This document shows, in pieces, positions 6-49,623 of a stretch of DNA of 64,000 nucleotides. Within the stretch, counting starts at the first letter, position 1. Every line of letters starts with the position of its first letter. Position numbers and translations under genes: made by a program. The notes below the pieces were generated by a model that was not told the DNA's origin, did no database searches, and saw nothing but the letters and a program-made list of their open reading frames with translations. Where the stretch lies: positions 18,073,746 through 18,137,745 of the forward strand of contig CM055113.1 in assembly GCA_029204225.1 (NCBI GenBank), given 5' to 3'. The stretch comes from Diphasiastrum complanatum. Taxonomy: Eukaryota > Streptophyta > Lycopodiopsida > Lycopodiales > Lycopodiaceae.

Positions 6-355
6 GTGCTTCAAAGCATTGTTGATGAACCATATGTGCCAAAGCCAAACGTGTTATTAATCAGACACACATATGATTTTCATGATCATATTAATGCGTC
101 CAATGAAATAGAGAGATGTGTAGCTAATATTAATAATATTAGCTTCCAACATCAGTTTAAAATCAAATGTAATGAATCATGCATTATATTATTATGGCTA
201 TTTTCAAATTCAGTTTCATGGTTGCCTCTTGAAGGAGTTTGATTTTTACTTAACATTCCATCGACTCAAATCAAGCTTGTTGTGTTGTCTCTCTTGAAGT
301 CCATGCTAGAAGAACAAAAGGCGCAAAGAAAACATCGTGAGATTGATCCATTTGT
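6..355 (+). pseudogene. unrecognised coding remnant, 5' part
   Basis: An open stretch of about 78 codons begins at the window edge and is followed by a broken frame ending near 355 with a charged E-E-Q-K-A-Q-R-K-H segment. I do not recognise the family. It stops exactly where a small TIR element begins at 357, and possible coding sequence resumes at 720, so both may be parts of one gene or transposon ORF split by that insertion. The left end is cut by the window. No start codon can be chosen. Confidence 0.3.
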
Positions 356-356
356 C

Positions 357-718
357 TAGTTTTGAGCTCCAAAAAGACCCTTTAAAAATTCGTGCAAGAT
401 GTCTTTTATATTATTAAAATATTATAACACTAATACTTTTGACTTGCCATAACTTTTTAATCATATCGTAGAAATATGTCATGTAAATTGGAAAGCCCTT
501 GTTGAGCGCTTTCCAATGTGCCAAACTCCGCTAAATTTGGACTTACCACTAAAAATTTATGCCATTTTTAGTGTAGAATCAAAATGTGGACTCAAAAAGT
601 TACGTTACGTAGATTTCAAATTTGAGTGTTTTGATTGGTCCATGTGTAAGAAAAATTTAAGAAAAAATATAAAAATAATCTTTACAAAGGGTCTTTTTTG
701 GATTTAGAACTCCTCTAA
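357..718. mobile_element. small TIR element (MITE-like)
   Basis: The ends are inverted repeats: the left end reads CTCCAAAAAGACCCTTT and the right end AAAGGGTCTTTTTTGGA, and both outer edges fall on a TA dinucleotide (TAG on the left, CTA on the right). The right 120 bases match 7047-7164 almost exactly, so it belongs to the same family as the hairpin element at 6366-7164. It has no coding capacity. The TA at both edges would fit a TA target duplication (Tc1/mariner-type), but that is inference. Confidence 0.65.
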
Positions 719-719
719 T

Positions 720-1258
720 ATGAGTTTGATCAGCATTGGTGGACAAACCTTTTTGAGGAACAAAAAATCAGTTTGCTCAATCTCAAACATGCATCAACAA
801 TTGGAAGAATTTTATTGGCCTCATAATTTGGGAATTTCAACTACAATTGTCGAACCTTCAAATCTTCCTCAAGATAAAGGTGGGGAATGTGAAATTTATG
901 TGGGCTCAAGGAAGAATAGGCAAAATGTAAAAGCTGCAAAAATGAAATGGCACGGTGATTGGAATGAAATCCAAATTAGAAGCCTTGTTGCACTTCTAGC
1001 TTCAGAAAATAGTGAAGGACATCCATTTTGGATTGCCAAAGTACTTGGTTTCATTCAAAATAGCAATCAAACAAAAGTACTATGTGTCCATTGGGTAGTT
1101 GCGCAACCACTTCAACAAATGCGTTTTTGGGAAGGTACGAACTCGAAATGTTACAAGTAGATCCAAAGGGCAAGAGAAAGAGATTGCCAAAAAATCAACC
1201 AAGAGTCAACGATTTGAATTTACAAGATGTAGATGTTTTGGCATTTAATTTGCGTTAA
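720..1258 (+). pseudogene. unrecognised coding remnant, 3' part
   Basis: An open frame of 146 codons runs 720-1160. A second frame then carries a plausible continuation (Y-E-L-E-M-L, a basic K-G-K-R-K-R patch, then D-L-N-L-Q-D-V-D-V-L-A) to a stop at 1256-1258, implying a frameshift near 1135. The segment F-W-I-A-K-V-L-G followed about 10 residues later by V-L-C-V-H-W resembles the small beta-barrel of BAH/Tudor-like chromatin readers, but this rests on pattern only. It lies directly after the TIR element at 357-718, which probably interrupts the same ancestral ORF. Beyond 1258 there are only degraded acidic fragments up to the copia breakpoint near 1588. Confidence 0.35.
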
Positions 1259-1584: not shown

Positions 1585-2950
1585 TCAATGGGATCTTGGT
1601 GCTTGCTTGAGTCCATAAAGACTTTTGAAGAGCAAGCACACTTTGGACTCATCCTTGATGAATCTTTGAGGTTGTTCCATATAGATCTCCTCCTCAAGAT
1701 AACCATTTAGAAAAGCATTGGATACATCTAATTGGAACACCTTCCACTTGAAAAGACAAGCAAGAGAAATAAGAATTCTTATTGTCACCATCTTTGCAAC
1801 GGGTGCAAAGGTCTCCTCATAATCAAGACCATGGATTTGAGCAAATCCTTTGGCACATAATCTTGCTTTATGCTTGTTGATGGTGCCATCATGATTGAAC
1901 TTGATCCGAAATACCCAATTGCAACCAATCACATGCTTGTTGGAAGGAGGATCCACAAGCTCCCAAGTATTGTTGGTGATCAATGCATCATACTCTTGCT
2001 TCATGGCATCATACCACTCCTTGGTATTGAGTGCCTCTTGTATATTCTTTGGCTCTTCATGAGAGACATAAAAAACATAATTAGTGGAATCAAGATCCAC
2101 TTGTTTGCCTTTGTCAACATATGAGAGCCTCTTAGGCTCGGATCTATCTCTCATGGATCTTCTTGGTGAAAAAATCCGAGGAGAGTCTTCTTCAAATCTC
2201 GACCCCATCACATCATGATTGTCTTCAAAATCAATAATTGATGATGCATCCATAGATTTCTTGATCTCGGCCTCTTCAAATGATGAGTGTTGATCTTCAT
2301 GAAAGACAACATCTCTACTTTCAATAATTTGAGAAGTAGAGAGTATAAAGACTCTATAGGCCTTCTTGGTGGATGAGTATCCAACCATGATCCCTTTGCA
2401 TGCACTAGGATCTTCCTTCTTCCTTGTTTCCAAGGGAATATGGACAAAGCATAAGCATCCAAAAACTCTAAGGTGATCAACCATAGGCTTCTTCAAAAAT
2501 AAGATTTCATATGGTGACTTTCCTCCAAGAGCTATATGTGGGAGCCTATTGCAAAGATAATTTGCACAATTAATAGCTTCTCCCCAAAAATCTTTGGGCA
2601 AAGATGCCTCAATTCTCATAGATTTTGTACATTCACATAGAGATCTATTCTTTCTCTCGGCGACTCCATTTTGAGATGGAGAGTAGGCACAAGAAAACTC
2701 TCTTTTAATGCCTTCAAGCTCACAAAAATCTTGAAATTTATTGGAGATATATTCACCACCTCTATCACTTCTAAGAGCTTTAATCTTGAATGAGAATTGC
2801 TTCTCTACATAAGCTTTGAAAATAAGGAAATGATCAAACACCATAGATTTTGAAGCAAGAAGATATATCCAAGTGAATCTTGTGTAATCATCAATGAAAG
2901 TAACAAAACAAGTGGCTCCTCCCTTGCTTGTAGTTGATGAGAAATGACAT
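1585..2950 (-). pseudogene. copia A integrase C-part and RT N-part
   Basis: The frame contains the integrase core (R-S-D-R-G-G-E-Y-I-S-N, then S-Q-N-G-V-A-E-R-K-N-R), the post-integrase G-C-L-C-F-V-H-I-P block, a Ser-rich linker, and the RT amino-terminal half (N-W-V-F-R-I-K, F-A-P-V-A-K-M-V-T-I-R, Q-L-D-V-S-N-A-F-L-N-G, S-L-Y-G-L-K-Q-A-P-R). Homology stops after Q-A-P-R, leaving three foreign residues before a stop, which marks the truncation point. The upstream integrase sequence F-V-T-F-I-D-D-Y lies in this same frame, so the frameshift that disconnects it from the HHCC domain lies near 2945. Confidence 0.9.
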
Positions 2951-3128
2951 CCGAGTGGATTAACTCCAAAGGATGCTTGCTTTTGATAGAAGATCTTGTA
3001 AATGGTTTTTTGTGAGATTTAGCAATAGCACAAGCCTCACAAGGCTTGATCTTCTTGGAGAATGACTTTGGCAAGCCAATAGCTTTGGATTCTTTGATCA
3101 TAGACATCATGGATTTGTAGTTGGGATG
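2946..3128 (-). pseudogene. copia A integrase HHCC zinc domain
   Basis: This piece continues the gag-protease frame beyond an in-frame TAA (3129-3131) that replaces the usual Gly of the L-G-H-P-N-Y motif. It includes C-E-A-C-A-I-A-K, the second half of the HHCC finger, and reaches H-S-D-V, where the canonical C-G-P residues are missing and the reading frame shifts. Both lesions block a Gag-Pol polyprotein. Confidence 0.85.
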
Positions 3129-4502
3129 TTACAACCTCCTATGCCATAATTCCTCCATAGAGAGCTTGTTCACAAGAGCAACATTACAAGCATTCACATA
3201 CTCATTTGGATCTAGTTTATAGATGCCACCAAATCTAGATCCTAATGCAAGTATCTCATCATTCTTCTTGATAGTGCAAGTATCAACATTGAATTTTACA
3301 TCAAGGCCATTATCAAGCAATTGGCCAACACTAATAAGATTCTTGGTAAGCTTAGGTACATAAAGAACTCTAGAGAGAGAAAGAACTTTAGAGGATGCAA
3401 GCTTCAAGGGAATGTTCCCTATGCCTTCAATAGGACATTCAAAATCATTTGCAGTGTATATTGATTTCTTCACTCCATCATAAGGTGCAATAGAAGAGAA
3501 AGAGTCCTTGGAGCTACACATATGTGAAGAGGCTCCACTATCAATATACCATAGGTCGTCCTTCTTGAAAGGAGTAGATGAGAAACTAGAGACCATAAGA
3601 GATCCCTCTCCATCACTTGCAATAGTATCTTCCTTCTCATTGGTAATATTGGCTTGCTTGAGTTGATTCTTCTTTTTGAAGCAATTGGTGGCATAATGAC
3701 CTTTCTTGCCACAATAAAAGCACTTGATCTTCTTTTTCTTCTTGAGCTTGGATGATGAAGCATTAGAGGAATCATCTTCCTTCTCATCTTTGTCTTTGGA
3801 TTTGACTTTGTCCTTGCTTGAGGATTGTTGATGTTGGTTCTTGCTCCTCTCTTTGTGCTTATCCTTGGCAAAGAGAGCGTTGCCATCATTATGAGTGAGA
3901 GAAAGCTTGTCCATCCTCAAGAGCTTATACTCTTGTCTTGATTCTTCTGAAATTAGCACACTTTGGAGAGCCTCCAAACTTGGTAGCTCCTCCTTAATGG
4001 CATAGGATTGGACAAGATTATCAAATTCACTTCTCAAGCCATTGAGAATGACTTGAACTAGCTTATTTTGATTGATGGAATCACCAATACAAGCAAGCTC
4101 TCTATGAATATCTTTTACTCTCAAAACATAACTAGATGCACTCTCATCACTCTTTTGGCTACTTTGAAAGATTTGATTCCTAAGAGTGAGAAGCCTAGAG
4201 GTATTCTTAGCCTCATAGATAGTCTTGAGACAATCCCAAGCTTCTTTGGCTGTTGTACAAGTACCTATCTCCCTCAATATCTCATTAGAGACATTCATCT
4301 TAATGTAGTGGAGAGCCATCCTAGTTCTCTTTTTGTATTTTTGAACCTCTTGAAGAACTTGTGGTTCTTCTTCAAGGCCAAGAACTATGTCCATCACGTC
4401 TTGAAGGATCAAGATGGACTCCATCCTCATTTTCCAAATTGAATAATTTGAACTGGTCAATCTTTCACTTGGTTCCAACAAGGATGAACCCATTGAAGAC
4501 AT
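3129..4502 (-). pseudogene. copia A gag-protease
   Basis: About 457 residues from the internal ATG at 4502; the frame opens further upstream, but M-S-S-M-G-S-S resembles usual copia starts. The capsid-like region has the S-N-Y-S-I-W-K-M-R-M motif typical of plant copia Gag. A Lys/Ser-rich stretch precedes the zinc knuckle C-F-Y-C-G-K-K-G-H-Y-A-T-N-C, and the aspartic protease has W-Y-I-D-S-G-A-S-S-H-M with an intact DSGA. The frame ends in integrase at E-L-W-H-R-R-L, where a TAA interrupts it. The gag-pro part itself looks uninterrupted. Confidence 0.9.
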
Positions 4503-5242
4503 TTGAAGTGAAGAAAACTCAAATGATGAACAATAAATGTTGTTACACACTTTTGATAGGATCCAATAATTGAGTACTATCTCCTCCTATGAAAGATCTT
4601 ACAACAATTTGTGAATTGATTCTCACTAGCTACACAAATCTCTCTAAAACAAGATCTATTTCACATCAAATGATGGAGTATAGGCAAAGTTAGGATCCAA
4701 CACTCTTAGCACGAGTGAAATACACTAAGAAACCAAATTTAACTCAAATACAATGATATTGCATGAAACAAAATGGCTAAGATCTCAAAACAGTGCCTAG
4801 ATCACATATAGATGAGATTGGCAAGCATACAACTGTGATTTTGGATCAACCAAGCAATCTCTTGACCAAACCAAATGTGTCCACCCAGGTCTAGGTGCCC
4901 TACCTAACCCTCTTCAAAAGCTTATAACTTTTGATTGGCTCAACCAAATGGAATGAAACTGATTGCAACAGTAGACAAAAATAGCTTCAAAACAAGCTAT
5001 CAAGCAAGATAAATGGATCAAACATGAGAGAGAACTTCCAAACTGAAATTGGATGTTCCTCACACGTGTCTGAGCACCTGATTTCGTACAGTACCAGGTC
5101 AGACCCAATCAATGTCCTTTTGATCTCTTTTGATCCAAGATTGAACAAGATAGCTAGGAAAATGGGCCTTGACAACTTCTAGCTCAAGATTGATGAAATT
5201 TTTTCACTTAGATGGATCAAAATGCATGGTAACCTTAGGTAG

Positions 5243-6293: not shown

Positions 6294-6365
6294 TTTGGAC
6301 GTTAGTCTATAGATAAATCGATGACTTAAGAATGATACCGTGTGACGCTACAATTGGAAATCACA

Positions 6366-7164
6366 TTAGAGGAATTCTGAATCCAAAAAAGACCCTTTAA
6401 GGAATGTCACGTAGATTGACAAAGTTTATTAATATAAATTACCAAAATAAATTCATTTTCTACCCAAATTCTTTTTCATTTCTGCCCGCACTAGTTTCGA
6501 TGCTTAACCATTCTATGTACATTACCATTTGTAGTTAATTTAAAATAGCATAACTTTTTAACCGTAGCTTTGATTGAGACGAAAATTATACCGTTGAAAA
6601 GCGCTCGATAAGAGCTTTCCAACGGTATTGAGATGCCTACTTCCAAGCCATTATTCAAAAGTTATGGCCGGTCAAAGTTTCAGACCAAAAAAAAAAGGTC
6701 CACATATCTCTCTTGTGCGAGGATAGAGTACTCTATTCGCGCACAAGAGAGAGTACTCTATCTGCGCACAAGAGAGATATGTGGACTTTTTTTTTTTTTT
6801 GGTCTAAAACTTTGATCGGCCATAACTTTTGAGCGGTAGCTCGGAAGTAGGTCATGTAGGATACCATTGGAAAGCTCTCGTCAAGCGCTTTCTAACGGTA
6901 TAATTTTCGTCTCAATTGAAGCTACAGTTTTATGCTATTTTAAATGATAATTGCATATTATACTATGAATAACATGTCATGCTTGCGGGCTGCCCCCGAC
7001 GCCGAATTATAGCATTATTAAGAAAACTTTTTTTTCGATTCTAATGAGCTACGTTACGTAGATTTCAAATTTGAGTGTTTTGATTGGTCCATGTGTAAGC
7101 AAAATTTGAGAAAAATATATAATATCTTTACAAAGGGTCTTTTTTGGATTTAGAACTTTTCTAA
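6366..7164. mobile_element. long-hairpin TIR element
   Basis: The outer ends are inverted repeats (left ATCCAAAAAAGACCCTTT, right AAAGGGTCTTTTTTGGAT) with TTAG at the left edge and CTAA at the right. Inside, roughly 6541-6740 is the imperfect reverse complement of 6745-6942, so the transcript could fold into a stem of about 200 base pairs with almost no loop; the apex carries repeated GCGCACAAGAGAGA units. There is no coding sequence. It sits between the primer site (7247-7258) and gag (6293) of copia H. Same family as 357-718. Confidence 0.75.
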
Positions 7165-7246
7165 CGATTATCTGATGCTAAAATTTGATATCACTTGTTG
7201 AAGAATAGATATAGCTCTGATACGATGAAAAGTATTTAGTGATATC

Positions 7247-11108: not shown

Positions 11109-11560
11109 ATGTATCCGTCGGGCCCTAGAACTGCCACTACTCTTTCTCCTTATGATAGATCTCTAATCACATTGCCTACTTATAATATAGATAATAATTC
11201 TTTTTTGACATTATCGGATATATCGGATCTTTTTGATTTCACAGAGGCTGAGACTCTTTGCATTTTGGGCAAAGAGCTTCATGAATTTTTAGATATAACT
11301 GATTTTGATGTTGATGATTTTCTCCCTGGTGGTGACGATGTAAATAAGGATGAAAAGATTGTTTGAAAATGGCTGTGGAGGAAATGCGCCAAAAAGAAGA
11401 TGACCTTTCTTCTGAATAGGAGTTTCTTAGATTTCAAAGTCAGTTTGGTTTTCCAAAACCAATTGTCTATTCACCAACCTTATTGACATCAAAAGGTGGA
11501 CACAATATTGAGGGAGAGACAGTAATCAAGGAAGACAAAGCCGAATGCGTAATTTTTGTA
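11109..11560 (+). pseudogene. hypothetical acidic ORF, frameshifted
   Basis: An 85-codon frame beginning M-Y-P-S-G-P-R encodes an acidic sequence (D-I-T-D-F-D-V-D-D-F-L-P-G-G-D-D) and stops at 11366. A second frame from the ATG at 11369 adds M-A-V-E-E-M-R-Q-K-E-D-D, a stop, then F-G-F-P-K-P-I-V-Y-S-P-T to about 11560, where the TIR element begins. I do not recognise it. It follows a motif cluster, as the ORF at 20885 also does. Confidence 0.35.
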
Positions 11561-12027: not shown

Positions 12028-12180
12028 TCAGATATCCTTCATCCATGGCGGGTCACGTGGCATGCCCCTTGGCCTAGGAGGCGGTGGTGGAGGACGAGGT
12101 CGTGGTGGATTTCCTTGGTGGCCTCCTTGCATTGGGACACCTCCAAGATGAATCCGTGTTGTTTGCTTCGTGTGAGCCAT
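12028..12180 (-). pseudogene. histone H3/CENH3 N-tail copy
   Basis: Fifty codons from ATG to TGA. The start M-A-H-T-K-Q-T-T-R-I-H-L-G-G matches the histone H3 tail pattern M-A-x-T-K-Q-T-x-R-x-x-x-G-G, followed by a Pro/Arg-rich run and D-P-P-W-M-K-D-I. The TGA that ends it aligns with the CGA (Arg) after K-D-I in the longer copy at 18856-19260, and conversely this copy keeps codons that are stops there (Arg-9, Trp-47). Weak similarity continues to about 11965. The two copies therefore descend from one intact ORF. It lies inside the TIR element, beside the outer hairpin arm. Confidence 0.75.
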
Positions 12181-12189
12181 GTGCATACC

Positions 12190-13838
12190 CAATATCGGAT
12201 CAGCGCGCATGTAGAAAGTCAGTAGCTACAGAATGTAGGTCGGGCATGCCACATCGATATTAGACAGAAAAGTCGGAAACTAGTTGATGATAGCGGATGG
12301 GCGTGCGGGAGTCTAGAACATGAATATCACAATTGGGTCGGGCATGCTGACCGATATTGCATGTTGTAAAAAAAAAATCGTTAACTTTTGAAAGACAACT
12401 CGGATTGAGACGATTACAACGCCATTAGAAAGCTCTCCACAAGAGCTTTTTAGCGACATCCAACTTGATCTAGTTTCGAGCTATGGTTAAAGAGATATTC
12501 TCAGTCAAAGTTTTGGATGGTCAACAGTGTGAAAAAACTGGATCTTGAATGGATCCAGACTCCCAAAATACTTGGCTAAGATCTTTGCTCAACAAGCTAC
12601 AAAAGCTAGAAATGGCAAAGCATCCTAATGCAAACTTTGATACACATGAACTTGACAAAGCATTCAAGAAACAAAAGAAGTTAATAAAAGGTACTGGTGG
12701 CAGCCAAAAACAACAGCATACCAGCCCTCCAACAGCAGCCTACCACTTTTGGAAACCTCTTAAGATCATACACAAAAGCTTGAAGACAATACACATAGCA
12801 ATGCTCTCAATCAAGGAAGAAACTGTGACAATGATCTATTGATCTCTCTCAACGATACAATAAGTTTCTCCAACCTATTCTCCACGAATTTCAGCCTGAT
12901 ATATGTGAGAGAGATGACTCTCTCTCCTCTCTCTAGAACTTAGAACCCAATTTTAGGGCACCAGTAGCCTAAAATAGCCAATTTTGCCCTATATGTCCAA
13001 ATAATATGATTTTGGTGTCATTTTGAAGGTCTTGAAGTTTGGGACTTTCTCAATATGAAATATATACTAAAATAAAAGTATCTAGGTCTCTTTCACATTT
13101 GTGAAAGATTAGATCCAAAACTATGTACAAAAATCACCAATTTAGGCCTCAAACTAGCTAGGAAATGTTGACAATTTTCACAAACAGTCAACGGTCAACC
13201 TAATATCGGATTAGCGCGTGGTTGACCAGTTTGATCCGGTCAAATCCTAAGGGCATGCGCCAATCCAATATTAGAGGTTAAATTTTGGGTTTTTTTTTTT
13301 GTGAAAGAGCTCCAAAACTTTGACTGCCTATAACTTTTGAATCGTAGCTCGGTATTAGGTCATTTTGGTGCCGTTGCAAAGCTCTCGTCGAGCTCTTTCA
13401 CAAAAAGAAATTAAAATCCTAATATTGGATCGGCGTGTGCCCTTAGGATTTGAACTGGTCAAACTGGTCAACCGTAGGCTGACATGATATTAGGTTGATC
13501 GTTGACTGTTGATCACCCAAAACTTTGACTGAGAATATCTCTTTAACCGTAGCTCGAAACTGGGTCATGTTGGATGTGGTTGAAAAGCTCTCGTCGATGG
13601 CTTTCTAATGGCACTGTAATCGTCTCAATCCCAGATGTCTTTCAAAAGTTATCATTTTTTTTACAACATGCAATATTGATTCAACGCGCCTGACCCAATC
13701 GTGATACTCTTGTTCCAAACTCCCGTGCGCCCATCCGCTATTGCCTAGTTTTCGACTTTTTTGTCTGATATTGGTTCGATGCACCTGACCTACATTCTGC
13801 AGCTGCTGACTTTCTACACATGCGTTGATCCGATATTG
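12190..13838. repeat. nested inverted repeats of the TIR element
   Basis: The outer arms are about 12190-12535 and 13500-13838: AATATCGGATCAGCGCGC in one arm faces TGCGTTGATCCGATATTG in the other, and CAGTCAAAGTTTTGG faces CCAAAACTTTGACTG. The inner arms, about 13186-13285 and 13415-13505, are related sequences with GGTTGACCAGTTTGA and AATCCTAAGGGCA. The 13300-13410 apex again has a GCTCTCGTCGAGCTCTTTC hairpin. The arms differ by scattered changes, so they are old. Confidence 0.7.
12549..12842 (+). CDS. hypothetical ORF in TIR-element interior
   Basis: A 97-codon frame starting M-D-P-D-S-Q-N-T-W-L-R-S-L-L-N-K-L-Q-K-L-E, with a Lys-rich middle. I do not recognise it. It lies between the hairpin arms, and downstream sequence to about 13180 is non-coding. 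It may be a captured fragment or a chance frame. Confidence 0.25.
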   Translation: MDPDSQNTWLRSLLNKLQKLEMAKHPNANFDTHELDKAFKKQKKLIKGTGGSQKQQHTSPPTAAYHFWKPLKIIHKSLKTIHIAMLSIKEETVTMIY

Positions 13839-15312: not shown

Positions 15313-16551
15313 CTAGCTAGATGATAACATAGCTTTACTAACTAAGCCAAGGGCTGATCTAAGCTTAAAAAAAGCATTCTTTTGAAGAGGCTTTCTCAAT
15401 ATATTAGCTATGCATTCTTCACTTGAAACATGCTCCAATGAGACCTCCTTAGCTTGGACCTTTTCTTTTACAAAGTGGTGAGCAATCTCTATGTGTTTGC
15501 TCCTTGCATGGTAGATTGGATTGGATGCTAGGTGTTGGGGTGAGATGTTGTCATTGTAGATGAGTGGAATGATACCTAATCTGATCACCTTGAGCTCCTC
15601 AAACAACCTCTTGATCCATAGAATCTACTTGGTTGTGGTTGTTAGAGCCTTGTACTCGGCCTCGGTTGATGAAAGAGAAATTGTTTCTTGTTTTTTTGAT
15701 AGCCAAGAAATCACACCTTCTCCAATGAAAGTTGCAAAGGCACTTGTTGACTTTCTATCCTTCTTGTCCCCTGCAAAATCTGAATCACTAAAAGCATGCA
15801 AGTTAATGGATTCACCTCTATAAAGGATCCCAAAATCTAGTGTGCCCGAGATGTATCTCAATATTCTTTTGGCACATTTCCAATGGATAACTAATGGATC
15901 TTGCATATGTTGACTAAGCTTGCAAACACTATAGCAAAGATCAGGTCTTGTTATGGTTATCCACATTAAGGAGCCAATAAGTTGCCTATAAAGAGTGATG
16001 TCCTTGAAGGATATTTCATCCTCTTTATTGGTCACTTTTACATCATGCTCCATAGGAGTCTCTACATGCTTGATTCCATGCATGTTAAATGTATCGAGTA
16101 ATGAAATGGCATACTTAGATTGACAAATGAAGACATAATCTAAAGATCTAAGTACTTCCATACCCAAAATGAAGTGCAAAAGCCCGAGATCTACCATCTT
16201 GGACTCTTTGGATAGATCTAGCTTAGTTTTCTCAGCACCTTCTAAATCATCTCCACTAAGTATGATATCATCAACATAAAGTAATAAAAGTACAATGCCT
16301 TTTGCACTAAATATTATGTACAAAGTGGGATCATACTCACTAGGAGTAGATCCAATGGAGATAAGAAAAGTATTGAGCCTTGTGTTCCAAGTTCTAGAAG
16401 CTTGTTTCAAACCATACAAGCTCCTCTTGAGATGACACACCTTGTCTTCCATACCTTGCTTGATGAAGCCCTCGGGCTGCTCCATAAATATATCCTCTTC
16501 CAAATGACCATTTAAGAAAGCATTTGACACATCCTTTTGAAAAATAACCAA
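15313..16551 (-). pseudogene. copia B reverse transcriptase and RNase H
   Basis: Two frames read together as the RT carboxyl half and RNase H: D-V-S-N-A-F-L-N-G, S-L-Y-G-L-K-Q-A-S-R-T-W, the catalytic Y-V-D-D-I-I-L-S-G, I-T-R-P-D-L-C-Y-S-V, F-S-D-S-D-F-A-G-D, then S-S-T-E-A-E-Y-K-A. A stop at about 15625 separates the last part (N-P-I-Y-H-A-R-S-K-H-I-E-I, ending at 15313). The YVDD active site is intact, but the stop and an upstream frameshift kill the polyprotein. Confidence 0.9.
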
Positions 16552-17081
16552 TCAAAGTGAGAAGCAAGAGCAATGATTAGTTTTATGGTGACCATCTTTG
16601 CCACGGGTGCAAAGGTCTCATCATAATCTATGCCCTTTGATTGAGCATACCCCTTGGCTACAAGCCTTGCCTTGTGCTTATAAAAACTCCCATTTTGATT
16701 CAACTTGAGCTTAAAAACCCACTTACATCCAATTACATTCCTATCCAAAGGTAGATCAACAAGCATCCAAGTATCATGCTCCATCAATGCATTGTACTCA
16801 TCACACATAGCTTGAAACCACTCCTTTGATTCTAAAGCTTCACTAACATTTGAAGGCTCTTCAAAAGATGTGATGAGCTCATAAGAAGAAGTACTTCTCT
16901 CGGCTTGCTTACCCTTGTCCTTGTATGTGAGCCTTAATGGCTCCATCCTTGACCTTGTGGATCTTCTTGGTGTGCTTGGTGTTCTTGGTTCTAGCTCCTC
17001 CTCATGATCAAGCTCCTCCTTGATCTCGGGTACCTCTCTTCCAATAGAGTGGTTAGATGAATCATCTTCAAGCTTATGCAT
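16512..17081 (-). pseudogene. copia B linker and RT N-part
   Basis: A frame with an acidic/Ser linker (T-P-S-T-P-R-R-S-T-R-S-R), then E-S-K-E-W-F-Q-A-M, G-C-K-W-V-F-K-L-K and F-A-P-V-A-K-M-V-T-I-K. It overlaps the downstream RT frame by a frameshift at about 16520-16550, where F-F-K-R-M-C-Q-M-L-S in this frame equals F-Q-K-D-V-S-N-A-F-L in the next. Confidence 0.9.
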
Positions 17082-17147
17082 TCTAGTCTCATAAAAAATG
17101 ATATCTCTAGAAATGACAACCTTTTGAGAAGAGGGAATGTAGATTTT

Positions 17148-17610
17148 CTAACCTTTGCTTGCATTGCCATAACCTACCATGATCCCCTTCATGGATGATG
17201 GATCCTCCTTGGTTCTTTTGTCCGAAGGGACATGTACATAGCAAATGCATCCAAACACTTTCAAGCTTTTGAAATTAGGCTTTTCTCCATACAATAACTC
17301 ATAAGATGTTTTACCATTTATAGAGCTACATGGAACTCTATTACATAAGAAGTTAGCACATGTGAGAGCTTCTCCCCAAAAAGACTTAGGTAGGCACGCA
17401 TCTAACCTTAGAGCTTTAGAACACTCACATAGTGTCCTATTTCTCCTCTCGGCCACCCCATTTTGTTGAGGATTGTAGGGGCAAGATAACTCCTCCTTGA
17501 TCACAAAAGACTTTAAATTCATTGGAGATATATTCTCCTCCATTATCACTTCTAAAGAACTTGATCTTGTGATTATGATGCTTTTCAATATCCAAAAAAT
17601 ATTGTTTGAA
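17148..17610 (-). pseudogene. copia B integrase, 5'-truncated
   Basis: The integrase core is split between two frames: F-R-S-D-N-G-G-E-Y-I-S-N-E-F in one, then N-P-Q-Q-N-G-V-A-E-R-R-N-R-T-L and C-A-N-F-L-C-N-R-V-P in the other, with the frameshift near 17500. Homology ends at about 17610, where the GCGCGTTGATCCGATATTC-type motif takes over. Copia B is therefore 5'-truncated inside the motif district, with no gag, protease or 5' LTR. Confidence 0.85.
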
Positions 17611-17976
17611 TATCGGATCAACGCGCACAATATGAAAAGAAACCAAGCAATAACTACAAGGGCATGTCAAATCGATATCGAAATTTTTTTACCTCTGCAT
17701 CAACAAATTTCAGCTTCGTATATGCTATTGCATGTGGTACTGGAAAGAGTTCCAATATTTTTTGGATATGGCTCCTAGCAATATTGTGTGTGTGTGTATA
17801 ATAGAGTTCATCTTTAAACAAACTGGATTACACACACCCTCATCATTGACATATAAGGACAACACATATAAGCGCCAATGATCGCTGCAATCAGAAAACA
17901 ATAAATTTATGAAAATGAATGTAAAATCAAAATTCATATAAAATATTCAACTTAATAAAATCTGATAGAAATTTAT
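17611..17976. other. motif remnant and uninterpreted spacer
   Basis: It begins with AATATCGGATCAACGCGCAC and has AATCGATATCG at about 17670, then a GTGTGTGTGTGT tract near 17790. I see no gene. Confidence 0.5.
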
Positions 17977-18237
17977 CTACTTTGTTATGTATGGGAGCAC
18001 AATAATTGGAGTCCCCAGTCTGACGTATTGGGGCATATCATCGTGCACACTTTTGAAATCAACAAAATAAAAAACAACCATGAATTGAAGTGGAAACAAT
18101 GCTACATCTATAAGCAGCGGGGTCTGGAAAAACTCCATCCAGTACTGAATTGCTCCCCCTCCTACATTGTCCCCTAGCATTTTATCCCTACTTTCTAACT
18201 CACCTGTATCTAATTTAGAAAGGGGAAGACCCAGCAT
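17977..18237 (-). CDS. hypothetical ORF next to histone-like pseudogene
   Basis: An 86-codon frame: M-L-G-L-P-L-S-K-L-D-T-G-E, G-G-G-A-I-Q-Y-W-M-E-F-F, and a hydrophobic L-F-P-L-Q-F-M-V-V-F-Y-F stretch. I do not recognise it. It lies downstream, on the same strand, of the P/S-rich ORF and the H3-like pseudogene, so all three may be parts of one mobile-element gene. Confidence 0.3.
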   Translation of the reverse strand: MLGLPLSKLDTGELESRDKMLGDNVGGGAIQYWMEFFQTPLLIDVALFPLQFMVVFYFVDFKSVHDDMPQYVRLGTPIIVLPYITK

Positions 18238-18307
18238 TGATTTTCGGCATCTTAAAATTGTATAGAGGACCTAAAGCTTTAAGATATGTGTTTAACAATT
18301 GGTCATA

Positions 18308-18805
18308 CTATACATATTGAGGAGTATTTACAAAGGCAAGTGCAAGGGGTGAAGGAAGTAATACAGATAAACCACTAAAAGAATTGTCATTCAAAATTGA
18401 TTCTACCTTTACATTTACAAAATCATCTAAATCATTTCCTAGAATAGGAGGTGGGGAACTAATATTTGTGAGGGTAGGAGGAGACTGAGATTTTGAAGGA
18501 GGAGGAGATTTATTAGGAGAGGAAGATTTAGCAGGAGAAGATGGAGATTGAGTTCTAGGAGGAGAAGAAAGAGACTTAGGAGTCACATCTCTGTTCTCCA
18601 AGGAGATCCGATCGATTTCATGAACTCCTGACCTAACAAAAAACATTGTCGAAGCAGTTAGAATCTCATGCAGAGGAGAGCTTTGAAAAATCTCTCGCTT
18701 TATTAGGAGGGTCATGAGACCTCCTCTTCTTTGAAACACTCCTACTCTGTACTCAAAAAACAAGCCAAGATGGTTGAGATTGCTTTCGTTTTCTTTTCTC
18801 TGCAT
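18308..18805 (-). CDS. hypothetical Pro/Ser-rich ORF
   Basis: 165 codons. The first third is basic (M-Q-R-K-E-N-E-S, F-Q-R-R-G-G-L-M); the middle is a Ser/Pro/Lys low-complexity tract with repeated S-S-P, S-P-P and K-S-P units; the end is acidic and hydrophobic (I-L-G-N-D-L-D-D-F-V-N-V-K-V-E). The tract looks disordered and could be a chromatin or nuclear linker, but no domain is recognised. It starts about 50 bases after the stop of the H3-like pseudogene on the same strand. Confidence 0.35.
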   Translation of the reverse strand: MQRKENESNLNHLGLFFEYRVGVFQRRGGLMTLLIKREIFQSSPLHEILTASTMFFVRSGVHEIDRISLENRDVTPKSLSSPPRTQSPSSPAKSSSPNKSPPPSKSQSPPTLTNISSPPPILGNDLDDFVNVKVESILNDNSFSGLSVLLPSPLALAFVNTPQYV

Positions 18806-18855
18806 CTTGTTTTGGAGGAGAGGAATGAGCTGGTCTAAAGTACTCTACAAATTTG

Positions 18856-19260
18856 TCATATGTGTCCCATAGCCTGAACCACAATGTTGAAATACTTGGG
18901 CATGATGGTCACCCTCCTGGCATGGACAGTTGCAACAACACTATTTGAAAAAAATTTCACTTGGAAATCCTCATATGCAGTGTGCAACGTCTCAATTGTT
19001 GTTACAGTCCATCTCACATCTATAGTTAGATTTCTTGTAACCTGTTTGATGGATCTCTGTATGTGAGCTTTCGGAATCAGAAGATTATTGATCTTTTATA
19101 CCTTTCGAATATCCTTCAGTCAGGGAGGGTCTCTTCATCTGCCCCTTGGCCTAGGAGGAGGTGGTGGTGGATGAGGCGATGGTTGTGGATTTCCCTGACC
19201 CCCTCCTGTGATTGGGATTCCACCAGGGTGGATTCATGTTGTTTGTTTAGTTTGCGCCAT
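18856..19260 (-). pseudogene. histone H3-family pseudogene, CENH3-like
   Basis: One continuous frame of 134 codons plus stop, broken by four internal stops (codons 9, 42, 47, 55). The tail is M-A-Q-T-K-Q-T-T, a Gly-rich part and a Pro-rich run. The histone fold is clear: L-K-D-I-R at alpha-N, N-N-L-L-I-P-K, Q-R-S-I-K-Q-V, then D-V-R-W-T, Y-E-D-F-Q-V-K-F-F, and H-A-R-R-V-T-I-M-P-K at loop 2/alpha-3. Spacing from L-L-I to the end of alpha-3 equals canonical H3. Pro after L-L-I, Trp-Thr in R-W-T and H-A-R-R are residues typical of plant CENH3, the centromere-specifying variant. There are no introns, although plant CENH3 genes normally have several. The C-terminal A-R-R-[LI]-x-G end is not conserved. 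Confidence 0.8.
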
Positions 19261-19644
19261 TACTAGAGAACGATAAGAACTTTTAGCAAAAAAAATTTAA
19301 GCGTCGTCCATCTGTATATATAGTGCAAATCCGAAATGATTGCATACGTGGTGGTTTGGAATTCCGAGGTTCGGATTACGTTGATGATTACTTTGAGATA
19401 TTTAGAGGCTTGTCAATCAAATCCAATTAAATATCCATCTTTCATAAAAATGATTAGTCGATATGGCTAATGACGACCACAATTAATTTCTACAAAAGTG
19501 TGGTCACATCTACAATTAATTCTACAAAAGTATGGTCACATCTACAATTTATTTATGAAATTGACAAGGTTATGCTATAAATATCCAACCTTTTTCTAAT
19601 ATCCAATCATTATAATTTCAAAAAATTTCAAACGCCATTATGTC

Positions 19645-20880
19645 ATCCAATAGCGAATCGATGCGCATGCATTGCATCTGTAAACTAGAGAGGCTATTCT
19701 CACGTGCTGAACCGATATTAGATGATATATGAATGATCAGAACTTGACTCGATATATTCTTCTTAGCTTTGGACAATATGAAGAGACTACCGAATCAAGC
19801 TTTGATCATGCATAATGTCGTCCAATAATTTTGACAATTTTCAAAAATCTTTTTTTTCCTGCAATAGCGATTTGACGCACGTAGTCCAAGGAAAGAATCA
19901 CTTTCTTCTCCCAGGCGCGCTGATCCGATATCTGAGACGCACTGAAAATATATTGGAACACAATATGAACCATCAAAGCTTGCTTTGGCAGATTTTTTTA
20001 AGCTTTGGATGTATGAGAAATCTCCCGAAACAAGCTTTGATGATTCATAATGCATTCCAATAGCGAATCAACACGCGTAGTCCAAGTTGAAAAATCTTTT
20101 TTTTGGGACGGGCGCGCTGATCCGATATCCGATTCGCCATATCAGAGTATTTAATCAACGTGCGCCTATTTGATCTGTTCCTCTGAAGCACTTGTCCTCT
20201 CACGTGGAATCGATATCGGCTCTTTCAAAATGCTCCGCCTTATGAAAATGTTCTGAATGGACAATCTCAAAAGAAAAAATTTCGTCTTTACGGTGCTTAA
20301 ATAGGGTGAGAGACTGTAATAATTGCCCTCGTACACGTTTTTCAATGATGTCTATTTAATGTTGTTTATTATTTGTTTAATGATGATTCAAGGAGGCTAG
20401 TGATAGACTATTTAATGTATTCCAGCGTAGGTACAAATTTTAGGGTCAGGGCTAATGATGATTTGGAGAATCTAGTGATAGACTATTTAATGTATTCCGG
20501 CGTAGGTACAAATTTGTCTCACTCTGATTGGTGGATAAATATAGGCTATGCTCCTCAATTCATTATTTGACAAATGTATGACTGTGATTCACAAGAATAG
20601 GCTATAAATATGGGCACCACTTTCCATATTTCGATTCCGTGATCTTTTATTCTGAACTCCCTCGTCATTTTGTTTTTTTTTTCTCGCGATATCGAATCAA
20701 CGCGCGCCTTCACATACAGTGCACAGTCAGATTCATTCAGGCACGTTGAAGCGATATCAGCCTCTTCTAACGTGTGCTCGCGAAAAATTTCACTCTCATC
20801 AAAATGATATCTAATCAACGCGCGCACTGTTGTTCAGTCCTCACCGAAATCATTCAGTCGCGTTGAACCGATATCAGGTT
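19645..20880. repeat. right array of GCGCGTTGATCCGATATC motifs
   Basis: About twelve copies of an 18-bp motif in both orientations: GCGCGCTGATCCGATATC at 19915 and 20109, GATATCGAATCAACGCGCGC at 20687, GATATCTAATCAACGCGCGC at 20807, GCGTTGAACCGATATCAG at 20859, and weaker ones at 19655, 19703, 19865, 20062, 20150, 20207 and 20745. Parts are imperfect direct repeats of about 230 bases, each with AAGCTTTGAT and CAATAGCGA. No coding sequence is seen inside. Confidence 0.7.
20398..20515. repeat. 43-bp direct repeat, 75-bp period
   Basis: The 43-base unit starting TAGTGATAGACTATTTAATG occurs at 20398-20440 and 20473-20515 with one difference (CCAGCG versus CCGGCG). It is a recent local duplication within the motif district. 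Confidence 0.9.
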
Positions 20881-20884
20881 CAAT

Positions 20885-21193
20885 ATGGCTAGCTCCTCTA
20901 TGTCCTCAGATAACAAACTTCTGGATTTTTTGAATGCCAGTGACATTCCATCTGAGAAATTAGAGTATTTTTCTAGTATTTTTTTTGCTCCCTTCGATAT
21001 CGATAAGCTAGTTTATGAGAATCGTTATAATTTAATTTCTCTTCTTGATAATTTTTCTCAGATTATTAGTACTCCTATTCAGGATATAGATAGTTTTTGT
21101 TTCATTCATTTTCAGGACCTTGTGCATTCCCAACCATCCTCTAAGCATAAACACAATTCCAATATCACGCAACCTTTGACAATATCCAAGTAA
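20885..21193 (+). CDS. hypothetical acidic ORF after motif array
   Basis: 102 codons starting M-A-S-S-S-M-S-S-D-N-K-L-L-D-F-L-N. The ATG lies seven bases after the last motif copy. The sequence is acidic and aromatic (L-E-Y-F-S-S-I-F-F-A-P-F-D-I-D-K-L). It is unrecognised. The ORF at 11109 sits in the same position relative to the left motif cluster and has a similar acidic character, so both may be N-terminal pieces of one element's protein. Confidence 0.4.
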   Translation: MASSSMSSDNKLLDFLNASDIPSEKLEYFSSIFFAPFDIDKLVYENRYNLISLLDNFSQIISTPIQDIDSFCFIHFQDLVHSQPSSKHKHNSNITQPLTISK

Positions 21194-36714: not shown

Positions 36715-37635
36715 GATCTTGATAGGATCTCACACGTGTGGAGTCTGTTCCCACGTGTGAAAGGATGTACATAACTTACTTTTATAATGTTAGATTGATT
36801 TTAGTTAGATCTACAGTGTGAAATTGACTTTTGACTAGAATCTAGAAAAAAGTCATTTTGGTCAAACTTTATGTAAATAGATTGCACTTCCATGTGAATG
36901 AGTTACTACTCACACATGTCAAGATGCCATTCATACATGTGGATAAGATTGTAGATGATAAGATTGAGAGATTTCATTAGATCCTATTTTATAGGATAAT
37001 TGTAGAAGACTAGTTTTTTTGTTTCTAGCTAATGAGAATAGTCAACTCTGGGAAATGAGCATATATGGCTCCCATTGGTGGATCTAGATGATTAGGCACT
37101 CTTCACACGTGTGAAGGCTTGCTGGATAGTACACAGCTCATGGATGTACTTGATCTATAAAGGGATCAACCAAATCAATGAGAAGTTGATGTGACATTGG
37201 CAATTTCTAGTTTTCCTTGTAATTTCCACATTTATCTTGAGCTTTTATGATTGGAAGACTTTAGTATGCAAATGTACTTTACTCTCTGTCTATAGTCCGT
37301 ACTGGTATTGTCCTCCACACGTGTGAGGCCGCTCTCATGGACATACTTGTCTTATAAAGGGATCAACCAAATCAATGAGAAGTTGATGTGACATTGGCAA
37401 TTTCTAGCTTTCCTTGTAATTTCTATGTTTGTCTTGAGTTTTTATGATTGGAATACTTTATATGCAAATGTACTTCACTCTCTATTTACAATCCGTACTG
37501 GTACTGTCCTCCACACGTGTGAGACCACTCTTCATAGTTTTTAATCATTTGATCCATTGCTCTTGCTAAAATCATAGTGTAATGCATCTAGATCAATATC
37601 TGACACATAGAACTTGATAGATCATTGGATTAAGC
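36715..37635 (+). repeat. LTR-like block with duplicated promoter
   Basis: It lies between two unrelated breaks in minus-strand copia RNase H sequences and contains five CACACGTGTG palindromes and two CTATAAAGG-type boxes (about 37155 and 37352). The composition is that of the other LTRs here. No primer site or terminal repeat was found, so solo LTR status is inferred. Confidence 0.5.
37138..37531 (+). repeat. 197-bp tandem duplication with TATA box
   Basis: CTCATGGA at about 37137 and 37335 begin two copies of about 197 bases that share TATAAAGGGATCAACC, GAGAAGTTGATGTGACATTG and CCGTACTGGTA-TGTCCTCC. They differ by roughly a dozen changes. Each has its own TATA-like box. Confidence 0.85.
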
Positions 37636-47530: not shown

Positions 47531-49623
47531 CTACAAATTTGCTCCATGTACTTGCCTAGCTTCCCAGTCTACCACGGGCCTGCAATGGTACTTATGCCTC
47601 ACTTTCCAATCCAGAGCTTGACAAGCCCGCGAGCAGTAATTGACAGATCCACAGGCTGAGCATCTTCTGAATTCATGTTTTCTGGTTTCTAGTCGCCCAC
47701 AGTTTCCGTGGGAGCACAGCCTCAACCCGCAGCTTGGAGGATGAAGAGAAAACCAGTCGACCAAAAATCTGTTTGCTGCATGAAGCTTGGGAGGAGGAAG
47801 ATTGCAGCCAAAGTCACTGAGCAGAGAGCAGGCACCATTGTGCAGAAACCTAAAGATAGGACGCCGATCCGCTCCAATGCTAACAAAATTTCCCGAGTGA
47901 TCCAAAAGAGCTCTTTGAATTACCTGAGCTTTATTCAACACGGAATGGAAAGGAAAGCTGTGATGTGGACAAGTTAATCGCAAGGGGTTGGCCATAGTTT
48001 GTAAGACTGACTGCACGAAACTCCTCGGAGATGCTACGACTGCCGCTGCAGCTTCTCTGGCATTGGCTTCCAACAGCAGGCGGCGACCTTCAACAACATT
48101 TTGCAGAACACCATAACCATCTTGTAGGCAATGACCAAGCTCGCGTATAGCATCCACGTGACCCAATGCGGCTGCTTTTGCACAGAGAATCATTCCGGCT
48201 TTCAAGTCCTTGTCTTTTCTAATACCTCCGCTTCCATTAAACTGAATAATCGCAAGAGAATGAAGAGCAGAAGTGTGTGCGACCATTGCCGCTTTTGACA
48301 TGAGAGAGGCACCTGCACCTCTATATCCTAGACAGTAAAAGCGGATCTGCAAATGCATTGCATCACAAAGCTTGTTTAATAACAAGCGATGGACTGTCTG
48401 TGAATTTTAAGGAATGATTTAGAAGAGACTACATAGCCAAAATCTCCAAGCCAGTGCCAGCTTCAAGTGCTATGCGTCACAGAGACAGCTAACAACTATC
48501 ATGGAAGAGGAAAGATAGGCGAATTGCTACAAAGGAATACCAAAGAAGTGCTATTCACTAAATTTGTTCAAAATACAATAGTTCGAGTTTGTAGCACACA
48601 GAGATGCTTGATATTGTTTGAGGAACAGATCTTTACCATTCCAAGCATGTAGCATGCCTCAATGTTACCGGCACCTGCACACTTCTTCAAAAATCGATGC
48701 GCCCCTTCAGACCAGGCCCGAGCCTTCACTTCAATAGCAGGGACTGCTGCCCTGGCAAGCACAAGAGGATGTGTTGCAGCGGCACAAAATCTTCGGCATC
48801 TACTCAAACATTTTCAGCGCGACTTTACTCAATAACGGAATAATTATACATGCGAATGACGTACAGCTTTATCCCGCTTGGGTAGCACATAAACAATCAA
48901 CTAAACGTAAGAAAGTTTAGCACATTTCCATAATGCACGAAAGAACTCTCTGGTTGAAAAATAAAACCCCATCTCATTCGTTACTGTCATTCTTGAAAAT
49001 GAAGAATTACGAAAAATTATGACAATGTCACAGAGAAAACCTTTGGAAGGATAAAATTGACAAAATTGAGGTGCAGGAAAAACACGAAGCGAGAATTCAT
49101 TTATAATGCAAATTCTTCTGGTTGCAAAACAGCAGATTTGACATAATCAGTTCAGATGATTGCAGGCCAAAAAGAAAACAAGTAATACTCAGAAAAGAAC
49201 TAGGCTTGTGAATGGGATGCAAAATGCCATGAATATCAGTTGCGCAGGAAGTAAGTTAGGAGCAGAGCGTTTAAAGCATAACACAAACAAATCTCACTCC
49301 GCTTGCCTACATTTGTAGCAAAATAATCAAATGAGTTACAATCAATTGCAAGATCGAGTCACATACGTAAGCATTGCGTTCACAAGATCCGCCGGAGACG
49401 AAGCTGTAGAACCGACACACGTGATGATGGCGATAAGCAAATCATCTGAAAGGGCATTGATTCCATCGTTTGAATCGTTCTTCAGGCGAGTAACGCGATT
49501 CATCTTCTTCGGCCTGTCATTGATATCCTTCATAACCAGCTGCGGCCTCTTTCGAAAAATAGGTCTGATATTGAAAGTGATTCCATCTGATGGAGTTGGA
49601 TAGTTCGCTCGCCTGGTCCGCAT
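47531..49623 (-). CDS. F-box protein with MYND zinc finger
   Basis: Three coding exons: 49367-49623, 48637-48802 and 47531-48346, with introns 48803-49366 and 48347-48636, both GT...AG. Together they give 1239 nt, an intact 412-residue protein. Exon 1 starts M-R-T-R-R and has the F-box (I-N-A-L-S-D-D-L-L-I). Exon 2 continues the F-box after a codon split by intron 1 (R-C-R-R-F) and enters Sel1-like repeats. Exon 3 has W-F-x-type and Sel1-like helices (E-L-G-H-C-L-Q-D-G-Y-G-V) and the MYND finger C-S-A-C-G-S-V-N-Y-C-S-R-A-C-Q near the end. Architecture and length match the plant At1g67340/At5g50450 family, predicted SCF ubiquitin-ligase substrate adaptors. No damage is visible, so it is the one probably functional host gene here. 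Confidence 0.92.

Follow-up and report, generated by a model that had tools for sequence, protein, structure and literature searches.

A minus-strand reading frame in a 64-kb stretch of the Diphasiastrum complanatum genome (hereafter the window; 64,000 nucleotides of contig CM055113.1, positions 18,073,746-18,137,745) was described in a first-pass annotation as an intronless histone H3-family pseudogene with CENH3-type residues, stemming from a CENH3 or CENH3-like gene that had been retrocopied or captured by a repeat. The locus raises the question of what kind of histone gene decayed here and what carried it to this site. Overall, the best explanation is probably that the feature is a decayed H3-like gene of a large family of DNA transposons with terminal inverted repeats (TIRs). 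That the element itself represents a transposon family carrying an H3-like gene can be stated with high confidence.

The frame at 18859-19260 (minus strand) is H3-like and is interrupted by three TGA stops and one TAA. The translation of 18856-19260 on this strand, MAQTKQTT*IHPGG...LLIPKAHIQRSIKQVTRNLTIDVRWT...HARRVTIMPK...GHI*, contains the annotated motifs at the positions where they had been placed. With the stops read as X, the frame matched the Pfam Histone family PF00125 significantly (E=2.4e-13, 50.8 bits at a cut-off of 26.4), and matches to H3 chains in PDB had E-values from 8e-13, with some alignments beginning at residue 1. The assignment to H3 is therefore far above chance, and the frame is a pseudogene copy since it contains four internal stops; in both respects the first-pass annotation was correct. 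The span of 18856-19260 given there is too short for the full remains of the protein. The terminal TGA lies after a frame shift, and the protein extends further in other copies; tblastn with the frame of locus L043 found pieces in the window at 18839-18681, 18466-18248, and 18246-18013. The following features belong to this copy, A being the name of the window type:

17588..21157, minus strand: span of the A-type copy of the transposon (from blastn between the window and A loci, and from comparison of ends)
18013..18839, minus strand: remnants, shifted in frame, of the linker (rich in Ser, Pro, and Lys) and the C-terminal region belonging to the protein of the window H3 (tblastn with the L043 frame)
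18859..19260, minus strand: decayed H3-like coding region comprising the tail, a poly-Pro linker, and alpha-N to alpha-3, with four internal stops (translation, Pfam and PDB matches, copy comparison)
19264..19265, minus strand: deletion point, with loss of about 180 bp of 5' leader found in other copies (alignment; a DNA search shows the same break)
19314..19322, minus strand: TATA-box-like TATATATAC upstream of the H3 frame (sequence and alignment)

The TATA-box-like stretch is common to several other A copies and may serve as a promoter element. Among the 19 other A loci, the codon at the position of the window stop at codon 9 is CGA in 10, that at the codon 42 stop is AGA in 9 and CGA in 6, that at the codon 47 stop is TGG in 13, and that at the codon 55 stop is CAG in 15. 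Both ends of the window copy are broken, at 17588 and 21157, and other copies extend beyond both. Pieces of a Copia-type retrotransposon (RVT_2, SH3-like, and integrase matches) at 15625-17630 on the minus strand adjoin the broken end near 17588 and are possibly a nested insertion that cut the H3 element. With its stops, frame shifts, deletion, and nested insertions, the window copy is dead. The gap of about 180 bp before the window ATG shows TA microhomology and is without GT-AG ends. A processed retrocopy was rejected because the missing leader shows no intron signature; the gene looks resident in a DNA transposon family, and the earlier proposal of retrocopying is not upheld.

The H3-like gene recurs throughout the 1.745-Gb genome. 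All 150 scored candidates, drawn from 7,012 first-look candidates (a number that is not a copy count), matched the window protein; the 149 matches besides the window itself had 71-83% protein identity and E<=2.1e-57. When the genome was searched with PF00125, 13 matches scored 163.7-165 bits, and all eight that were fetched were canonical H3; among the further matches listed, scores were about 83-110 bits, many of them in open frames of 200-417 codons. The fetched loci fall into the subfamilies A (20 loci, L029-L048, where L029 is the window copy itself), B (8 loci), C (11 loci), and D (L026 only). PF00125 matched B with E=5e-28 and C with E=1.3e-28, and A, B, and C all include open frames. 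In A, where several loci are near-duplicates of one another, the matched part of H3 is free of stops in seven loci (L032, L036, L038, L040, L044, L046, and L047) and contains at least one in the other 13. Exact 27-30-mers within the H3 gene occur 259 times for A, 218 for B, and 95 for C, as lower bounds, while the reversed patterns gave zero each. The A-type gene thus has a copy number at least in the hundreds. Besides its B copy, locus L021 contains another diverged H3-like copy (L021:9020-9565), which has a C-terminal region and likely represents a fifth subfamily. In the C-type histone protein (L010:3958-5133), a run of dozens of prolines precedes the H3 core, and its length varies between copies, for example, between L010 and L011.

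Homology in the fetched 10-kb B and C loci extends for kilobases around the H3 gene and includes three partner genes, which were named 'tp', 'mass', and 'ryh' in this analysis. Pieces of them were detected by tblastn among loci in seven of the eight B loci (none in L017), in all 11 C loci, and in 8 of the 20 A loci, which span just 1.5 kb on either side of H3 (L031, L032, L033, L034, L037, L043, L047, and L048). In the D locus, only 'mass' was found by tblastn among the partner genes. The gene order in B is tp(+), mass(-), H3(+), ryh(-), and C has this order too, except that mass and H3 are reversed in orientation. The A loci differ in arrangement: mass and H3 share a strand in L031 and lie on opposite strands in L043. 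Counted by eye among the matches listed, there were at least 11 H3-tp and at least 11 H3-ryh neighbours within 4 kb, tp always upstream on the same strand and ryh always downstream on the opposite strand; this tally noted one arrangement, and A loci show others.

The partner ORFs of B and C that were scanned had no convincing Pfam match. The tp protein contains the pattern IKLDEAEI ... WHLA.DLKTLKCM ... C..C ... QG[MI]EKSH, which, read by eye, could possibly hold the D, D, E triad of a DD(E) transposase. Its 361-aa piece from L012 and 111-aa piece from L020 matched no Pfam family at E<=10, a 327-aa piece from L020 gave weak coiled-coil matches only, and no match of tp to PDB was found. The AlphaFold model of tp had a mean pLDDT of 39.6 and was unusable for fold search.

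The ends of the elements were established for B and C. The right ends of B coincide in all five copies compared, and the left ends (two copies) start with CA[TC]TAGAGGA[AG]TTCTCAATATCAAAAAGAC, the inverse of the right end, giving a TIR of about 36 bp and an element length of 9.3 kb (L049/L028). The C copies, including one element of 1.09 kb, carry CATTAGGGCCCTTTTTGGACTCAAAAAGGGCC at both ends and have a TIR of about 32 bp, and short elements of 1.0-1.15 kb have C ends. The TIRs of both subfamilies begin with CAYTAG. Exact end sequences of 35 and 37 bases occur genome-wide 1,084 times for B and 568 times for C, with zero in the reversed control. A 3-bp target site duplication (TSD) was found in two of seven pairs with flanks fetched for the purpose (L051/L052 and L059/L060) and in none of four other pairs (L028, L011, L024, and the window element at 6364-7166). 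This overall frequency, 2 of 11 pairs against 0.17 expected by chance, is far from regular; therefore, B and C elements are likely TIR DNA transposons with CACTA-like ends. A is assigned to the family by gene content in part of its loci. No 8-bp TSD was seen by eye in seven flank pairs, and no Pfam match to the hAT dimerisation domain was found in the ORFs scanned. The tp pieces had no Pfam match to the CACTA transposase, Transposase_21. The carriage by a repeat that had been annotated is borne out by the 149 further genome matches and by the TIR elements in B and C. Other traces of the family in the window are as follows:

349..720, no strand assigned: another short element, weaker, whose ends resemble those of B (10 and 5 mismatches of 35 in the TIR matches)
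6364..7166, no strand assigned: short element with B-like TIRs (TIR matches with 5 and 7 mismatches of 35)
11163..11551, plus strand: remnant of the partner gene 'mass' (found in two pieces with the B-type protein as tblastn query, E=8e-9)
12029..12208, minus strand: another, short fragment from the start of an A-type H3 gene (69-78% identity to A loci by blastn)

One shuffle of the window, used as a control, gave no B-like TIR matches. The window also contains a Copia-type retrotransposon at 1585-4550 on the minus strand (gag, integrase, and RVT_2 matches), an ORF at 47531-48385 on the minus strand with Sel1 repeats and a MYND finger, which is possibly an ordinary host gene, and two tandem copies of a 197-bp unit at 37137-37531 with 90% matches.

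Selection on the element genes was gauged with dN/dS ratios, calculated with our own script as summed pairwise NG86 values after dropping pairs with dS<=0.02. For the H3 part of A, the ratio was 0.31 (205 of 210 pairs from 21 rows, in which the window counts twice, as itself and as L029) and 0.25 for the 108 pairs with dS>0.3; these values are biased down by the choice of A loci by protein similarity. The C-terminal extension of A, which lay outside the query used for choosing the loci, had a ratio of 0.60 (169 of 171 pairs, 19 rows) and 0.52 for the 66 pairs with dS>0.3. The ratios were 0.46 for B H3 (28 pairs, eight copies), 0.68 for C H3 (53 of 55 pairs, 11 copies), 0.38 for B mass (14 of 15 pairs, six copies), 0.48 for B ryh (three pairs, three copies), and 0.69 for C tp (14 of 21 pairs, seven copies). 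These values suggest purifying selection on the element genes, though less strongly than the figure for A H3 alone would, since similarity-picked loci lower dN/dS and the C-terminal extension gave 0.60.

These ratios bear on the possibility that the histone gene is a passenger, captured by Pack-type transduplication and of no benefit to the element, as in fungal hAT transposons. Transposons often capture host genes, the H3 copies in fungal hAT elements are reported to be mostly inactivated (PMC6710886), and a stop in the matched stretch of 13 of the 20 A loci would agree with such an origin. However, the divergent subfamilies A-D all combine the gene with at least one of the partner genes named above, dN/dS falls below 1 for each of the six gene sets as well as for the A C-terminal extension, and the A and B proteins have an additional C-terminal region. 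Mere capture is thus unlikely.

Still less probable is that a host CENH3, retrocopied or not, was captured and amplified by a repeat. The plant CENH3 (HTR12) has the residues LLIP, RWT, and HARR and a loop 1 longer than that of H3. The window copy has all three motifs, and the resemblance of LLIP and RWT to plant CENH3 underlay the affinity proposed in the first-pass annotation. LLIP is common to A, B, and C, while RW was found in A only. On the other hand, the window type keeps a K4-type tail context, and the loop-1 insertion is absent in A relative to H3, unlike in the plant CENH3 sequences compared; in the alignment, loop 1 of A and C has the length of H3, and that of B is one residue longer. 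That the leader gap is not an intron also speaks against this origin.

In the 20-row tree, one branch separates the 14 transposon rows from the others (86/92, not starred), and another sets apart A and B plus the L021 fragment (92/91, not starred). All transposon rows and plant CENH3 share one side of a branch in the best tree; this grouping is weak (71/62) and inclines slightly towards the annotated CENH3 affinity. In the 20-row tree, A alone did not form a supported group with CENH3. The AU test rejected neither A with plant CENH3 (p=0.167) nor A with H3 (p=0.070). Against the Arabidopsis CENH3 core, the transposon copies compared had 47-56% identity, but the genome's own canonical H3 was nearer, with 59%. 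A search for the host CENH3 with this core gave canonical H3 and then transposon-like copies, and no host CENH3 was found. The CENH3-type residues of the annotation are present, and the affinity itself is not established by the length of loop 1 or by the weak support in the tree.

Some (large DNA) viruses encode histones, and the element has several genes with several proteins lacking Pfam relatives, but an origin as an endogenous DNA virus or virus-like element that brought in a histone is highly improbable, since no viral hallmark occurred in the B ORFs scanned (eight of nine from L027 and three from L018), TIRs and short elements (1.0-1.15 kb) with the same ends are typical of DNA transposons, and viral contigs gave pattern matches with no confirmed relative for ryh and B-H3.

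If the H3-like gene is a working part of the transposon, its tail and fold may indicate its role. The unusual TKQT context noted in the annotation is real: position 4 is K in all 20 A loci, including the window. In the same loci, position 9 is never K (I in nine, G in nine, and V in two), position 10 is always H, so that S10 is absent, and position 14 is occupied by I (19 loci) or F (one), with no K14. In L032, L040, L046, and L047, K4 is the sole lysine before the histone core. The four aligned B tails read M-D-[RK]-R-K-Q-T-R-R-D, with a K4-like site (RKQT) and without K9. The N-terminus of C is long and Pro-rich and that of D is short, both without an H3 tail. A C-terminal region beyond H3 is present in A and B, and in A, B, and C the H3 sequence makes up one portion of a larger protein. 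In the L2 loop region, the H and KRVT residues do not vary among the 15 aligned rows. The B model has H3-like helices at 33-48, 55-69, 78-106, and 113-131, with a mean pLDDT of 42.4 and values of about 50-70 in the helices; the 50 Foldseek matches listed for this low-confidence model were mostly nucleosome or H3 entries, with E from 9.7e-6. The invariant L2-loop residues and the resemblance of the B model to nucleosomal H3 suggest that the protein works as a histone.

Such a protein would pair with host H4 and would enter nucleosomes on or near the element DNA. The A and B tails retain K4 and have lost K9 along with most other modifiable lysines, and nucleosomes with such K4-only tails would hinder H3K9/K27-type silencing of the element. 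Since the H3 tail is missing in C and D, tail-based anti-silencing cannot serve all subfamilies, and we regard this role as tentative at best. Alternatively, the H3-like protein could mark or tether transposition complexes. The boldest formulation, a new superfamily of plant DNA transposons with its own histone variant as a working part, building or seeding nucleosomes that could take the active K4 mark but no mark at K9, nor in several copies at any remaining tail lysine, as a self-made shield against heterochromatin silencing, is doubtful. If the protein does enter nucleosomes, transposons would have evolved a means to alter the chromatin that silences them, and the retention of K4 with loss of K9 offers a natural tail difference that makes the idea testable. 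In genomes of this kind, transposon copies may also inflate the tally of H3 or CENH3 genes.

Comparison with known systems concerns both the ends of the element and its cargo. CACTA (En/Spm) and wider CMC transposons have CA(C/T)TAG termini, a 3-bp TSD, and a C(2)C motif after the second D. The elements described here share the termini, the 3-bp duplication in 2 of 11 pairs, and C(2)C after the second D of tp, but match neither Transposase_21 nor, convincingly, any other Pfam family. The literature searched yielded no CACTA element equipped with a histone gene and no plant transposon carrying one, and the word 'histone' is absent from the main text of a plant review on transposon gene capture; the precedents are two fungal papers. 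In Pyrenophora tritici-repentis, a hAT element contains TIRs, a transposase, an ORF of unknown function, and an H3L gene matching neither H3 nor CenH3 completely, and is present in 10 long and 16 short, highly similar copies (PMC3538342). It is likewise a DNA transposon carrying an H3-like gene between its TIRs, but it resides in a fungus and has a hAT transposase, whereas the plant elements have CAYTAG ends, no hAT match, more numerous and divergent copies, three partner genes, and a longer H3-containing protein (A, B, and C). Pseudocercospora fijiensis and its relatives harbor a hAT element of about 9.5 kb with a captured H3, an 8-bp TSD, and a 20-bp TIR, and hundreds of H3-like copies, the extra ones inactivated by RIP (PMC6710886). 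There, too, a DNA transposon has spread hundreds of H3-like copies; unlike those RIP-inactivated copies, some of the copies described here have open frames, with dN/dS below 1. What looks new is the combination, in transposons of a plant, of a diverged histone of their own, a K4-only tail, and partner genes of an unfamiliar kind. The same partner genes accompany the H3-like gene across divergent subfamilies. Published histone-carrying DNA transposons are those of some fungi, with copies that are few or inactivated, while in this plant they are diverged and abundant.
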